Source: a virus
DNA length: 26,768 nt
Reading direction: 5' to 3' (one strand)
IMG/VR virus record: IMGVR_UViG_3300047560_000324
Span: 1 to 26,768 of that record
The position numbers and the translations under genes were made by a program. Below the pieces are notes generated by a model. The model was not told the origin of the DNA. It searched no databases and saw only the letters and a list, made by a program, of their open reading frames with translations. Positions 12,873-21,517 of the stretch are shown here, piece by piece (the first letter of the stretch is position 1; every line of letters begins with the position of its first letter).

Positions 12873-13676
12873 ATGGCAGAACCATCTATTTTCGGCTCAT
12901 TACTTGATACAGCATTGACAGCAGTAGTAACACCGCTAGAAGCAGTTGATCCAACTGGTGCAATCAAGTTCATAGAGAAACAAATCTTTGGCTCAAAATA
13001 CACATTTGAGTCTGCACATTTCCCAGAGGACCTTGGTGCAGAGTATATGGGTCACTGGATGACAATTAAGTTCTTTGATGATCAGTATGGTTTTGCAACC
13101 GGTTCTGCTACTTCAGGACCAACAACACCTGTGTTCTCGGCTGCCTTGTTCATGCCATCTGCTACAGGTGGTGGTTCAACACCAATCTATACAGATGCAC
13201 ACGAATACGCTGACATTAAACTGTCAAACATAGTCACCAATAATCTATTAGGTGTATCTGGTACAAATATGGCAGCCACTATGCGTCGTGCTATTAATCC
13301 TGGTGTTCAGGTACTATACAGAAGCACCGCACTAAGAACATTTCAGTTCGGCTTCCTCTTTGCACCACGTTCTGAGAAAGAATCACAGAACATGGAAAAG
13401 ATCATATACTATATTCGTAGAAACGCTGCACCGGTTAATCAAGGTCTGACCTTTAAAACACCAGCAGAAGCACAGATTAATTTTTGGTTCAACGGTAAAG
13501 AAAACACACACGTACCTAAACTAAAGCGTTGTGTTGTTACGGCTATTGAAGCAAACTATTCTCCACAAGGTGAGTGGTCAACATTCACCAATGGTTACCC
13601 AGTTTCATGTCTATTCACATTTACAGTTAGAGAAATGGAAATTATTGACAGAAACTATATCGATCAGGGATTCTAA
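12873..13676 (+). CDS. 48: Baseplate tail-tube cap/initiator gp48
   Basis: The 267-residue protein fits gp48, the ring that with gp54 sits on the hub and starts tail-tube polymerisation. The C-terminal half has LRTFQFGFLFAPRSEKESQN with a following helix (MEKIIYYIRRN), FKTPAEAQINFWFNGKENTH, VPKLKRCVVTAIEANYSPQG and EWSTFTNGYPVSCLFTFTVR, the tube-like beta-sandwich pattern seen in gp48. The N-terminus (about 1-40) is hydrophobic and may contact the hub. AGAGG precedes the ATG by 6 bases. It opens the rightward virion block and its stop overlaps the next ATG (TAATG), as in the T4 48-54 pair. Confidence 0.8.
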   Translation: MAEPSIFGSLLDTALTAVVTPLEAVDPTGAIKFIEKQIFGSKYTFESAHFPEDLGAEYMGHWMTIKFFDDQYGFATGSATSGPTTPVFSAALFMPSATGGGSTPIYTDAHEYADIKLSNIVTNNLLGVSGTNMAATMRRAINPGVQVLYRSTALRTFQFGFLFAPRSEKESQNMEKIIYYIRRNAAPVNQGLTFKTPAEAQINFWFNGKENTHVPKLKRCVVTAIEANYSPQGEWSTFTNGYPVSCLFTFTVREMEIIDRNYIDQGF

Positions 13677-14329
13677 TGGCCTCTTTTAACGTATCAAACC
13701 CACCATCAAATCTTACTATGTTGGATTTTAATAGTAAGATTAACAGTCTAGGTGCTTTGGCAAAACAGTGCCGTTATATGGTCAGAGTTAGCCCAACAAA
13801 TCCTAATAATCTGATGACTCAACTGGGCTATAATCAGTTGTTTAAAGAGTTGTCATATCTATGTGATGCAACTGAGTTACCCGGTAGAGGATCTGAAATA
13901 TCTGAAACAAGATATTATGGACCACCTATCATGTTTCCATATAACACAAAATACTCAAACGAAATTTCAATGTCATTCATCTGTAGAGGTGAGTCGTATG
14001 AAAGACAGCTATTTGATGACTGGGTGGGTATTATTAATCCCATCAATAACTTTAACTTCAATTACCCAGAACAGTATTATGCCACGATAGATGTGTTTCA
14101 ACTATCAGAAGCACCAACAAACATTAAGGGTGCAACAGCACCTAAGGCAGTATATCAGTGGTCATTACAGAACGCATGGCCAGCACAAGTCAATCCTCAG
14201 CCTGTGACATGGGCTGACAATGATGTGCTAAGATTATCAGTTTCATTTGTATATCAGTATTGGACAAGACCAGGAAGAGATGCAGTACCTGGCACAGCAC
14301 CATCAACATTATCAGGATTAACACCATAA
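13676..14329 (+). CDS. 54: Tail-tube initiator gp54-like (gp19/gp54 family)
   Basis: The 217-residue protein belongs to the family that includes the T4 tail tube protein gp19 and its paralogue gp54. It has LSYLCDATELPGRGSEISET near residues 58-77, YYGPPIMFPYNTKYSNEISM, SFICRGESYERQLFDDWVGI, and a C-terminal AWPAQVNPQPVTWADNDVLR followed by LSVSFVYQYWTR, the usual end of tube proteins. I favour gp54 over gp19 because it follows gp48 with a one-base overlap and is longer than a typical gp19 (163 in T4), although much shorter than T4 gp54 (320). A separate tube gene is expected outside the window. Confidence 0.7.
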   Translation: MASFNVSNPPSNLTMLDFNSKINSLGALAKQCRYMVRVSPTNPNNLMTQLGYNQLFKELSYLCDATELPGRGSEISETRYYGPPIMFPYNTKYSNEISMSFICRGESYERQLFDDWVGIINPINNFNFNYPEQYYATIDVFQLSEAPTNIKGATAPKAVYQWSLQNAWPAQVNPQPVTWADNDVLRLSVSFVYQYWTRPGRDAVPGTAPSTLSGLTP

Positions 14330-14343
14330 GTGGAGATTAGAAT

Positions 14344-15096
14344 ATGAGTTTGCCTATTGAAACGGTAGAAAGACCTCTACCAAAGATTGATGTGCCGGTT
14401 CACACAGTAAAGATACCATCAAATGGTAAGACAATTAAAGTCAGACCATTTACGGTGAAAGAAGAAAAGCTATTGTTTATGGCAGCCGAGTCGAAGAATC
14501 TAGAAGATATCATAACGACAAGCAGACAGGTGTTAAACAATTGTATTGTTAGTGGTGATATTGATATTGACAAGTTACCATTCTTTGACATTGACTTTTT
14601 GTTTATCTTTCTGAGAGCAAAGTCTGTTGGAGAATCTGTAGAGGTAAGCCTAACTTGCAATAACACACTAGACAATGGTAATAGATGTGGGCATACATTC
14701 CCAACAAATATGGATATAGCCAAGTGTGAGATAGTTAAAGATGAAACTATTACCAATGATATAAAGTTTGATCAGAATAACGGTGTCAAGATGAAGTATC
14801 CTAACTATTCACTAGTTAAGAATCTAGATCAAGCACCAGAGATTGATAAGAAAACTACCATTATCATAAACTCTATTGAACACATATATGATAAGAAGGG
14901 TGTCTACTCTGCAAAAGACTATTCAACAAAAGAACTAAAAGAATTTGTTGAAGGGTTGACTGAGGAGAACTACAAGAAACTAGAAAAGTTTGTTGACAAC
15001 TTTCCGACATTTGTTGTTAAACTAGAAGCAGACTGTCCCAAGTGTGGATTTCATCATGAAGTGAGGTATTCAGATTTCTTAGATTTTTTTTACTGA
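14344..15096 (+). CDS. 26: Baseplate hub assembly protein gp26
   Basis: The 250-residue product fits the T4 baseplate gp26 family. It has the signature IKVRPFTVKEEKLLFMAAES at 31-50, a Cys in 'VLNNC', LPFFDIDFLFIFLRAKSVGE at 78-97 and CNNTLDNGNRCGHTF at 105-119. A second cysteine pair (CPKCGFHH, 231-238) near the C-terminus suggests a zinc knuckle formed with C105 and C115. T4 gp26 acts in hub assembly and is not abundant in the particle. GGAG lies 8 bases before the ATG. The last codons are GAT TTT TTT TAC TGA, an exact slippery heptamer just before the stop, and the -1 frame is open into the next gene, so a longer 324-residue form is probably made as well. Confidence 0.85.
   Translation: MSLPIETVERPLPKIDVPVHTVKIPSNGKTIKVRPFTVKEEKLLFMAAESKNLEDIITTSRQVLNNCIVSGDIDIDKLPFFDIDFLFIFLRAKSVGESVEVSLTCNNTLDNGNRCGHTFPTNMDIAKCEIVKDETITNDIKFDQNNGVKMKYPNYSLVKNLDQAPEIDKKTTIIINSIEHIYDKKGVYSAKDYSTKELKEFVEGLTEENYKKLEKFVDNFPTFVVKLEADCPKCGFHHEVRYSDFLDFFY
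15084..15090 (+). promoter_or_regulatory. Predicted -1 ribosomal frameshift site
   Basis: The heptamer T TTT TTT is in the gp26 reading phase and is followed by TAC TGA, so the zero-frame stop is one codon away. After a -1 slip translation continues LLILGHDKLSG and then directly into the frame of the gp51-like protein without any stop. A frameshift would give a 324-residue gp26-gp51 fusion. This is analogous to tail-assembly chaperone frameshifts (lambda G/GT). I see no obvious strong downstream stem. Confidence 0.7.
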
Positions 15097-15122
15097 TACT
15101 CGGTCATGATAAACTTAGTGGT

Positions 15123-15317
15123 GTGTTTAAAACAAACTTTGCAATGATGCAGCATCACCATTGGAGTCTAACAGAACTTGAGAGCATGATGCCGTGGGAA
15201 AGATATATTTACATTGATTTGCTGGCAGCCTTCTTGGACGAGCAGGAGAAACTTGCTAAACAAAGAGAACAAGAAATGAAAGCCCAGATCAAACAAGCAC
15301 AAAGAAGAAAGCAGTAA
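15123..15317 (+). CDS. gp51-like hub assembly domain (likely frameshift extension)
   Basis: As a stand-alone gene this would start at GTG 15123 and give 64 residues, but there is no ribosome site before that GTG and the frame is open upstream to the slippery site at 15084. I therefore read it as the C-terminal 75 residues (from 15090) of a gp26 fusion. The sequence MQHHHWSLTELESMMPWERY followed by IYIDLLAAFLDEQEKLAKQ resembles small proteins or C-terminal regions that follow gp26 in other T4-like phages and are named after gp51, the hub assembly catalyst. The end is a highly charged Lys/Gln/Arg helix. The stop is directly followed by the ATG of the next gene (TAAATG). The gp51 name is tentative. 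Confidence 0.65.
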   Translation: MFKTNFAMMQHHHWSLTELESMMPWERYIYIDLLAAFLDEQEKLAKQREQEMKAQIKQAQRRKQ

Positions 15318-17897
15318 ATGCCATTCACAGCAAGAAAAGCAAACTTTAATGCTTTAAGAAAATTAAATCTGCAAGATAGAATAGCGGCTGTCCAGGATCA
15401 ACAGACTGGACAATTTCTTATTTCTATGCTGACACCAACACAAGCAGCAGAACTATTCCCACATTACTATATTGAACGCAACCCAAACATTAGTGGGTTT
15501 CTAAGGGCTATACCATCTTCTCTATCAGCTATGAAGCAAAGAGAATACGAACAGCAGTTGAATAATACTGCTTCAGGTTCTTCAGCAGGATCTAATTTTA
15601 ATGCTGGCGGCTATCGTAAGAAGTGGCAAGAGAACATGGATGCAGAACGTGCTGCTGTCAGTAAAAAAGGATATAAACCACCTCCACAATTATCACCAGA
15701 ACAAAAGGCTGCCTTCGACGCATTAAAGGCTGGTGATATTGCCGTCAATGACGAGAGAATGAAGTGGTTGAAAAATGCACCGGAAGAAATTAGAAAAGAA
15801 GTTGGCATTACTATTACAAAAGATGATAAGGGTAATGAAAAGTTTCACTATGCTGCACCACAGATTAGTGAAGAAGAGGCTAAAGCAAGTCTTTCTTCTT
15901 CAGGTAGTCTAAAACAGATGATTGATGCTGCTGCGGCCAAACACAATGTTGATCCTAAAATAATGTATGGTATTGTTCGTGGTGAATCAGGTCACGGCAA
16001 TATCTATGATAGAAATATTAACAGTAGAGAAGAATCGTGGGGTCCTTTTCAAATGAATCGTGCCAGTTGGAATCCTGGATTAGGATCTGACTTTGAGAGA
16101 GAAACAGGATTGTCAGTGAGAGACCCTTCTTCTCTTTCTAGACAAGCTGATTGGATTGCTGCTAAAATTGCAGCACATGGTGGTGACCGTCGTTGGGTAG
16201 CTAGTCAATGGTATGGATATGGATCTGATGTAGGAGGACCGAAAGATTTTGATGCTAGAGCCGCTGGTGGTGCTCGTGACTGGAACAAATCTTGGGGAAC
16301 GATGGGGTCTGCGAGTAATGATCCCATAACACAAAACTATACCTCACAACAGATTGCTGCTAGGAGAGAACAATTAGCAGTTGAAGCAGAAGCAGGACGT
16401 TTAGGTAAGTTGGCATCTGTTACACAACCTGAACAAACAGCAATTACTTCTACTGCGGCAGCCGGTGGTACTACAGGCTCATGGCTGGGAGAATCAAAAC
16501 AATGTGTGGCACTTAGTAAGCATTTTGCTCCTCAAGTTGGACCAGCAAGTACCTGGAATGTTAAGTATAATCCAGATGGTATTGTACCTGGTGCTGTTAT
16601 CGCTACAACATCTTATAATGATCATTCTGGTGGTAAGATGGCAAGAGATATGCCTGATGGTAAGAGTCATTATCACACAGGAATTGCGCTAACAAAACCT
16701 GATGCACAAGGCAATGTTCTCATATTAGATCAACACGCTGGACGTGGTGCTTCTGTTACAAGAGTAAACATTAATGATTATCATGGTGAGAAATGGGGTA
16801 TTGTTGGTAATGGACAACCTACAGAAAGTTCAATGGCTGCTATCAATATGGCAAAATCATTGGCCTCACCAGAACAAAAAATGTTGATTGAAGGTACATC
16901 ACAACCATCATCAATACCTGCATCAGTGGCACCTTCTGCTGAAAAAACTGTGAAAGATTCTACTACTAAATCTAATAACGAAGTTGCTGCGAGACAAGAC
17001 GTTACTGGAGGTATCAAGCCATTAACAGACGTTACACAACCAGGTGGTCCTACGAACACTCCCGCTGCTGCACCTACTGCTAAGGTCGAACAACCAAAGG
17101 CTTCACCATCGGGTAATAGATTTACCTTTAACAAAGATGCATATCTAAATGAAGTCGGTACTAAACAACCATTGGCATATTCATTTGTTGGGCCAGGCCG
17201 TGAAGGTGTGTGGAATGATACAGTTAAAGGACTGAGAGAAGCACAGGCACAGGGTGTTCTATCATATGATGAAAAGTCTGGCGCCTTGAATATTAAAGAT
17301 ATGAATCATCCTAAGGTGCAAGAAATTCTAGGTGACATGAAGAAGTATAATCTTGATAAAGACACTTTCATGAAGAAACACGAAGATGTGCCAACACAGG
17401 TTAAACCTAAAGCACAGGGTGGCACCACGAAGGTCAGCACAGAAGAAATTGCTGCATATCCTATTGGTGGGTTACAGGGAGATAATGCTGTAGTTGTTAA
17501 TGCACAACAAAAGCCACTGTTCACAATGAATACAAATGAAGCAGCAGTAATGAATCCTGACACTAAGACTGTTGATGTGTTACCAAACAAAAAGAATAAT
17601 GCTCTCGGTCCACAGCAACAAACAGATACCGCTGCACCTATGATGAATGAGTTTCAATCTGCTATACAAGATTTACAAAAGGGGTTTGCTGATATGCAAA
17701 CTAAGACAGCCAAGGCACCTGATTTAAATAAGCAAGCAACAGATCAACTCAATCAGAATTGGTTAGCAGCATTAGGTCATGTTACAGAGATACCATATAG
17801 AAACCCAACTGCACATAGAGTGGCAAGTCGTGCTAATGGTGTTGAAACTGGTAGTGCAGATAATAATTACCATTACAGTAAAGGTAACAGATCATAA
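15318..17897 (+). CDS. Virion protein with lytic transglycosylase and cysteine amidase-like domains
   Basis: The 859-residue product carries two likely wall-degrading domains. At about 198-300 is a lysozyme/SLT-type domain: GIVRGESGHGN with catalytic Glu223, then SWGPFQMN (241-247) and ASQWYGYGS. At about 388-498 is a CHAP-like domain close to the BPSL0067 group: SKQCVALSKHF with nucleophile Cys396, IVPGAVIATTSY, HYHTGIALT with His453, and VLILDQHAGRG. The N-terminus (1-80) is well ordered in composition; 500-620 and 690-859 are Ala/Gln/Pro/Thr-rich and may be extended. No transmembrane or signal sequence is seen. Position after gp26 suggests a hub or tail-lumen protein that opens peptidoglycan at injection, replacing the lysozyme domain missing from the gp5-like genes. 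A tape-measure role is possible but unsupported. Confidence 0.75.
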   Translation: MPFTARKANFNALRKLNLQDRIAAVQDQQTGQFLISMLTPTQAAELFPHYYIERNPNISGFLRAIPSSLSAMKQREYEQQLNNTASGSSAGSNFNAGGYRKKWQENMDAERAAVSKKGYKPPPQLSPEQKAAFDALKAGDIAVNDERMKWLKNAPEEIRKEVGITITKDDKGNEKFHYAAPQISEEEAKASLSSSGSLKQMIDAAAAKHNVDPKIMYGIVRGESGHGNIYDRNINSREESWGPFQMNRASWNPGLGSDFERETGLSVRDPSSLSRQADWIAAKIAAHGGDRRWVASQWYGYGSDVGGPKDFDARAAGGARDWNKSWGTMGSASNDPITQNYTSQQIAARREQLAVEAEAGRLGKLASVTQPEQTAITSTAAAGGTTGSWLGESKQCVALSKHFAPQVGPASTWNVKYNPDGIVPGAVIATTSYNDHSGGKMARDMPDGKSHYHTGIALTKPDAQGNVLILDQHAGRGASVTRVNINDYHGEKWGIVGNGQPTESSMAAINMAKSLASPEQKMLIEGTSQPSSIPASVAPSAEKTVKDSTTKSNNEVAARQDVTGGIKPLTDVTQPGGPTNTPAAAPTAKVEQPKASPSGNRFTFNKDAYLNEVGTKQPLAYSFVGPGREGVWNDTVKGLREAQAQGVLSYDEKSGALNIKDMNHPKVQEILGDMKKYNLDKDTFMKKHEDVPTQVKPKAQGGTTKVSTEEIAAYPIGGLQGDNAVVVNAQQKPLFTMNTNEAAVMNPDTKTVDVLPNKKNNALGPQQQTDTAAPMMNEFQSAIQDLQKGFADMQTKTAKAPDLNKQATDQLNQNWLAALGHVTEIPYRNPTAHRVASRANGVETGSADNNYHYSKGNRS

Positions 17898-20888: not shown

Positions 20889-21113
20889 TTAAAGAGGGAG
20901 TTGGGAAGTGTTTGACTTTTTGAGGTAGTGTAGTTCTTCGGCTTCTAGTTTGATCTTTGACTTGAGGACACCAGAGACTAACTTAGCTGCTGTCTCTACC
21001 TCAAATCCTGTTTCTTCACAATACATAACAACTGCATCAATGTAAGGTATGTCTTTCATATAGACCATCTCCTCGATGGCCATTGAAAAGCGGCTGATAT
21101 CTTCTGCGTTCAT
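20889..21113 (-). CDS. 33: Late transcription coactivator gp33
   Basis: This 74-residue protein resembles gp33 of T4-like phages. FSMAIEEMVYMKDIPYIDAV, VMYCEETGFEVETAAKLVSG and VLKSKIKLEAEELHYLKKS correspond to the C-terminal part of T4 gp33 (IIEKMVEEFGMSYLEATTAF, then the helix ending in 'IIEKIQSEA'). gp33 binds the RNA polymerase flap and the sliding clamp gp45, linking replication to late promoters of the TATAAATA type. It is shorter than T4 gp33 (112) but similar to versions I recall from marine T4-like phages. AAGGAA lies 8 bases before the ATG. It is the first coding gene downstream of the tmRNA, so readthrough from the tmRNA promoter may reach it. Confidence 0.75.
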   Translation of the reverse strand: MNAEDISRFSMAIEEMVYMKDIPYIDAVVMYCEETGFEVETAAKLVSGVLKSKIKLEAEELHYLKKSNTSQLPL

Positions 21114-21183
21114 ATCCGTTCCTTGTTATCATAATATAAAGTGCCACCATTTCTGTTTCGAGGCTGGTGGCCCACCCAAAGGA

Positions 21184-21228
21184 TTACGCTGCTAGAGCGA
21201 AAGCCTCATAGGCGTTGTTGTCGTTTGC
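21184..21228 (-). other. tmRNA proteolysis tag reading frame
   Basis: Fourteen sense codons and TAA encode ANDNNAYEAFALAA. The ANDN start and ALAA end are those of alphaproteobacterial tags, and the ALAA end is what ClpXP-type proteases recognise. The frame ends close to the short stem that closes the coding piece. Confidence 0.93.
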
Positions 21229-21292
21229 CTTTACGATTTGCTTTCGATCTCCTTACGACCTTACTGAATCCTGTCGAACCTGAATCGCCCCC

Positions 21293-21374
21293 ATCAAAGA
21301 TACACCTATTATCATATCCCATCGGCTAGCACGATATAAGACCACACAAACGACCTCGGTGGCTGGTGTATCTA
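21293..21374 (-). other. tmRNA intervening segment removed on processing
   Basis: These 82 bases join the CCA end of the acceptor piece to the 5' end of the coding piece. Near the edges AGATACACC and GGTGTATCT are perfectly complementary, which would extend the acceptor stem and present the loop to processing enzymes. No protein-coding content is seen. Confidence 0.75.
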
Positions 21375-21447
21375 TGGTGGAGGCGGTGGGAACTGCCCCC
21401 ACGTCCAAGAAACCTATGTTTCGTCTCTCAACGATCTAAGCATATTA

Positions 21448-21476
21448 TTTATAGCACAAAACTCATTGCGTGTCAA
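21448..21476 (-). promoter_or_regulatory. Sigma70-type promoter of the tmRNA
   Basis: The minus strand reads TTGACA (21476-21471), 17 bases, then TATAAA (21453-21448). Transcription would begin near 21441, right at the start of the acceptor piece. The -10 region continues as TATAAATA, which is also the T4 late core, so the RNA could be made both early and late. Confidence 0.85.
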
Positions 21477-21517
21477 GGGTATTTTCAAAATCTTCTATCC
21501 AAGGTGCTTGAGATTCC

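Follow-up and report, generated by a model that had tools for sequence, protein, structure and literature searches.

A gp26-like gene of an uncultured phage lineage very probably yields two tail assembly chaperones by −1 frameshifting

Results

A gp51-like reading frame at the end of gp26

The window, by which we mean the whole stretch of 26,768 nucleotides analysed here (IMG/VR record IMGVR_UViG_3300047560_000324), carries a gp26-like gene between a tail tube-like gene (13676–14329) and a gene for an 859-residue protein. The 3′ end of the gp26-like gene reads GAT TTT TTT TAC TGA, where TAC is the single codon separating a slippery heptamer from the stop (Table 1). From 15090 the −1 frame reads on without a stop until 15315–15317 and encodes a 75-residue product beginning LLILGHDKLSGVFKTNFAMM; joined to gp26 residues 1–249, it gives a predicted long product of 324 residues next to the short product of 250. 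An earlier reading of this DNA, referred to below as the original prediction, had claimed a T TTT TTT heptamer in the gp26 phase with the stop one codon on, a −1 frame unbroken from 15090 to 15317, and products of 250 and 324 residues from one gene, all of which was borne out when sequence and phase were verified, the open reading frame was read through and the lengths were recomputed (249 + 75 = 324). It had also named a GTG without a ribosome site as the sole downstream start, and the earliest start in the −1 frame of the window is indeed GTG 15123, ahead of which no Shine-Dalgarno (SD)-like sequence was found in the window.

Table 1 Features of the gp26–gp51 region of the window
Feature	Position	Strand	Basis
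gp26-like gene, short product TAC-N, 250 aa	14344–15096	+	ORF, PF12322, phrog_150, AlphaFold2 model
SD-like GTGAGGT, a possible stimulator, 16 nt ahead of the heptamer	15061–15067	+	
T_TTT_TTT, slippery heptamer in phase with gp26, one codon ahead of the stop	15084–15090	+	
0-frame stop TGA of the short product	15094–15096	+	
−1 frame extension TAC-C, gp51-like, 75 aa and stop	15090–15317	+	phrog_634, phrog_150, tblastn, T4 gp51 C-terminus homology
859-aa protein, candidate tape measure	15318–17897	+	Position and annotation of relatives

The two frames match two different phage protein families. The 0-frame product matches PF12322, “T4 bacteriophage base plate protein” (E 1.5e-56), and phrog_150, baseplate hub (E 1.5e-59), while the −1 product, taken from 15090, matches phrog_634, “baseplate hub assembly catalyst”, that is gp51 (E 1.5e-23), and aligns in addition to phrog_150 positions 236–277, just past the point where gp26 ends. 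Since the phrog_634 match starts at the second residue of the −1 product, the residues encoded upstream of the GTG are covered by the match.

In T4, gp26 (208 aa) and gp51 (249 aa) each match nearly the whole of PF12322, the gp51 match extends through phrog_150 to position 280, and the last ~48 residues of gp51 align with the −1 domain of the window. Judged by sequence, T4 gp26 and gp51 are thus paralogues that match the short and the long product, gp51 consisting of a gp26-like body followed by the C-terminal domain that we find in the −1 frame of the window. Unlike the window, T4 has two separate genes on opposite strands, and its gene 26 ends without a heptamer. The original prediction had held that a frameshift was not described for T4, where 26 and 51 are separate; the separation stands, but frameshifting is known in T4-like phages, and the two T4 genes are paralogues rather than unrelated. 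Cyanophage gp51 has been reported to be only ~20% of the T4 length, with the first ~200 residues missing (PMC3037559); it would seem truncated because those residues belong to gp26 and are joined to it through the frameshift.

Structural match and neighbouring genes

The 0-frame product was modelled with AlphaFold2 (pLDDT 82), and an unguided Foldseek search with the model gave the HK97 tail assembly chaperone 2OB9 as the best PDB match (E 1.5). Aligned with VIA-align, model and chaperone gave Z 7.7 with an rmsd of 4.1 Å over 83 of 107 residues, and the second-ranked structure gave Z 4.6. A Z of 7.7 falls where chance matches are seen and short of what is commonly regarded as decisive. The match agrees with the gene order, in which the tail tube-like gene lies upstream and a large gene, the candidate for the tape measure, directly downstream. 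For the latter, family searches returned no convincing match, so that its role can only be inferred; its position directly after the chaperone gene, where lambda and other phages have their tape measure gene, and the annotation of relatives suggest that it is probably the tape measure protein. In HTVC008M and phiM12 a protein encoded shortly after the gp51 ORF carries the annotation tape measure, and relatives of the window retain a homologue of the 859-residue protein.

Inspected by eye, the 859-residue protein contains putative lytic transglycosylase-like (ESGHGNIYDRN...GPFQMN) and CHAP-like stretches. It is a mosaic, in that relatives match separate segments only, and proteins in the equivalent position are annotated as endolysin or peptidase in other phages.

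Elsewhere in the window, a T4-like contig, a permuted two-piece tmRNA lies on the minus strand at 21093–21480; it is of alphaproteobacterial type (RF01849, 88.9 bits; ARAGORN tag ANDNNAYEAFALAA). Melnitz-like marine phages are already known to carry permuted tmRNAs (PMC9004378), and the one found here hints at an alphaproteobacterial host.

Conservation of the heptamer among gp26 homologues

The gp26 protein found 894 phage records by tblastn at E ≤ 1e-3 and the −1 domain 534 at E ≤ 10, while megablast returned no near DNA relative of the window among cultured or public phage records. We read 43 IMG/VR loci and ~20 annotated phages. In 47 of 49 distinct gp26 homologues the gene has T_TTT_TT(T/C/G) in phase near its end, no further than three codons from the stop (0–2 codons before it), which answers the question of conservation across related phages that the original prediction had raised. 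Wherever the contig continues, the gp51 domain is found in the −1 frame of these heptamer-bearing homologues; one contig (L019) stops at the junction. Heptamer and −1 domain occur together in Kyanoviridae, in Straboviridae (Angelvirus, Schizotequatrovirus), in Pootjesviridae, in Emdodecavirus, Menderavirus and Otagovirus, and in uncultured phages. The heptamer is absent from the two remaining homologues, those of Vibrio phage D508 (L062) and Kuttervirus Maynard (Ackermannviridae; L059). To control for chance occurrence, 294 distinct ORFs of at least 120 aa, taken from all loci and the window, were scanned for the motif in their final six codons. It occurred in 46 of these ORFs, all 46 of them gp26, and in none of the ~248 other ORFs of the same loci.

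Codon use was analysed in the 23 sequences of the window's clade, with residues numbered by alignment column. Invariant residues for which synonymous codons are available occupy 46 columns, and a single codon is used in only six, all at the extreme 3′ end: H240, V242 (GTG), R243 (AGG), D249 (GAT), F250 (TTT) and F251 (TTT). The last three are the codons of the heptamer. In the remaining invariant Asp columns of the clade GAT and GAC are used about 50:50, and given two Phe codons and the codon use of gp26, the heptamer would be expected at a frequency of ~0.22 per sequence (0.34 × 0.65). Since the heptamer codons are fixed while the other Asp columns vary, it is the nucleotides that are conserved, and not the amino acids alone.

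Independent start or frameshift

The gp51 domain could instead be a separate small protein, produced by termination at the gp26 stop and reinitiation at a nearby ATG or GTG. This would fit the frequent calling of gp51 as a separate short gene in public annotations, and in many relatives an ATG stands at codon 3–5 of the −1 reading frame, as in TGATAATG. To that extent the independently initiated ORF against which the original prediction was to be judged does exist, but the relatives that have it retain the heptamer as well, and in these a minor reinitiation product may be made. The window, in contrast, offers only GTG 15123 without an SD, and in three of its closest relatives (L003, L004 and L007, gp26 86–88% identical) this codon is GTC and no ATG, GTG or TTG precedes codon 21 of the −1 frame, which falls inside the conserved domain. 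Despite the loss of the GTG, LLILGHDKL... is still encoded in all three, and most of the differences between heptamer and GTG (5 of 8 in L003) affect third codon positions of the −1 frame; the residues between heptamer and GTG, whose conservation the original prediction had proposed to compare, are thus kept where the GTG itself is not. For the window and its nearest relatives we therefore rejected an independent gp51 start. Several annotated cyanophage genomes likewise have no good start for the extension, and the region is without an annotated gene there. Reinitiation also leaves the conserved heptamer and its synonymous constraint unexplained, and T4 gp51 is a full-length fusion, so that we regard this explanation as very unlikely.

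A run of eight consecutive T, as found in the window, could also cause transcriptional slippage, a known mechanism on homopolymer runs that is treated beside ribosomal frameshifting in PMC5009743, and mRNAs with an altered number of U would then be read normally into the −1 frame. Many relatives, however, have only six T (GATTTTTTCG) and yet keep the heptanucleotide exactly, in the phase that a ribosomal shift would need. Six T are too short for typical slippage of bacterial RNA polymerase, and we give this mechanism even less credence than reinitiation. Homopolymer runs are prone to errors, and a mistake made in sequencing or assembling the T run might mask an ordinary single fused ORF; this reading, the least credible of the three, is already refuted by the comparative data, as the same architecture recurs in 47 distinct sequences, including the complete genomes of many cultured phages. 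A −1 frameshift from gp26 into the gp51-like domain, parallel to lambda G/GT as originally claimed, remains the best reading: the heptamer and the residues ahead of the GTG are conserved while the GTG is lost.

The gp51 extension is unannotated in the public records of the cyanophages ACG-2014i, S-H9-1, S-CAM1 and S-CAM8 (L048, L049, L055 and L057).

Sequences flanking the heptamer

Two of the single-codon columns upstream of the heptamer, the GTG-AGG pair encoding V and R (invariant in the 23 clade sequences), form the SD-like GTGAGGT. In the clade members that carry it, its pairing with the anti-SD is stronger than that of nearly all synonymous versions, and judged from the sequence it may raise the frameshift rate. 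Its conservation upstream of the heptamer is limited to the window's clade. Cyanophages have an SD-like GAGGG 9 nt upstream, which pairs no more strongly than other synonymous encodings of the peptide; since the peptide accounts for it, we claim no selection on this element. Downstream RNA structure was considered as a stimulator and rejected: the fold in the window has a z of −0.67, and among nine sequences no conserved downstream fold was found, the individual folds disagreeing with one another.

The −1 frameshift of E. coli dnaX likewise has an SD-like sequence inside the gene, ahead of a homopolymeric slippery heptamer, and there the spacing between the two is about 10 nt. The arrangement in the window's clade differs from it in its 16-nt spacing, in that no downstream hairpin was detected, and in belonging to an unrelated gene. 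We suggest tentatively, as a distinct possibility, that in this clade the shift on U_UUU_UUU is tuned by the codon-locked internal GTGAGGT and not by downstream structure, an arrangement perhaps undescribed for T4-like chaperones. Counting against a shift here, U_UUU_UUU in E. coli constructs was reported to be far less shift-prone than A_AAA_AAG (PMC5009743).

Discussion

Taken together, we consider it very probable that 14344–15317 forms a single gene for tail assembly chaperones, from which two products, TAC-N of 250 aa and TAC-NC of 324 aa, are made through a −1 frameshift. From the conservation, the homology to T4 gp51 and the match to the HK97 chaperone we infer that gp26 and gp26-51 form a TAC-N/TAC-NC pair of the lambda G/GT type, and with it the shifting of ribosomes, its rate and the chaperone function. 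Most ribosomes would stop at the TGA and release TAC-N. A minority would slip back by one base on the T_TTT_TTT, where both Phe tRNAs can re-pair with UUU, and would thereby bypass the stop and append the 75-residue gp51-like domain to give TAC-NC.

A frameshift in tail chaperone genes is reportedly general among dsDNA phages (Xu, Hendrix and Duda, 2004). The slippery heptamer of lambda is G_GGA_AAG, whereas that of the present system is U_UUU_UUU/C, one codon from the stop, and the protein family differs by sequence from that of gpG/gpGT. Lambda gpG and gpGT both bind the tape measure protein, and the partner of the T domain is the major tail protein (PMC5009743). By analogy, TAC-N would form a coat on the tape measure protein, which 15318–17897 probably encodes, and the gp51-like extension would recruit the tail tube protein.

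That tail chaperone genes use frameshifting has been established before for tailed phages, T4-like phages among them. Vladimirov, Gautam and Davidson are said to have found in 2022 that it is conserved in several T4-like groups and that T4 itself uses genes 26 and 51. As far as it is recounted in two later papers (PMC12846349, PMC10885494), the 2022 study (Vladimirov et al., Virology 566:9–15) identified the T4-like tail assembly chaperones and is credited with poly-T −1 frameshift signals in T4-like TAC-N genes, and according to the same passages some T4-like phages have separate short and long chaperone genes instead. The gene described here belongs to the same gp26/gp51 family, to which the uncultured lineage of the window adds a further member. 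With the principle already published, the gain is incremental: what we add is the codon-level evidence and the codon-locked SD-like GTGAGGT in the window's clade, and this upstream element is the only part that may be new.

For annotation, the finding matters in that many public genomes omit the extension or list it as a separate gene. For the biology of the group, it means that many T4-like phages would make a short and a long tail chaperone from one frameshifting gene, where the model phage T4 uses two paralogous genes.
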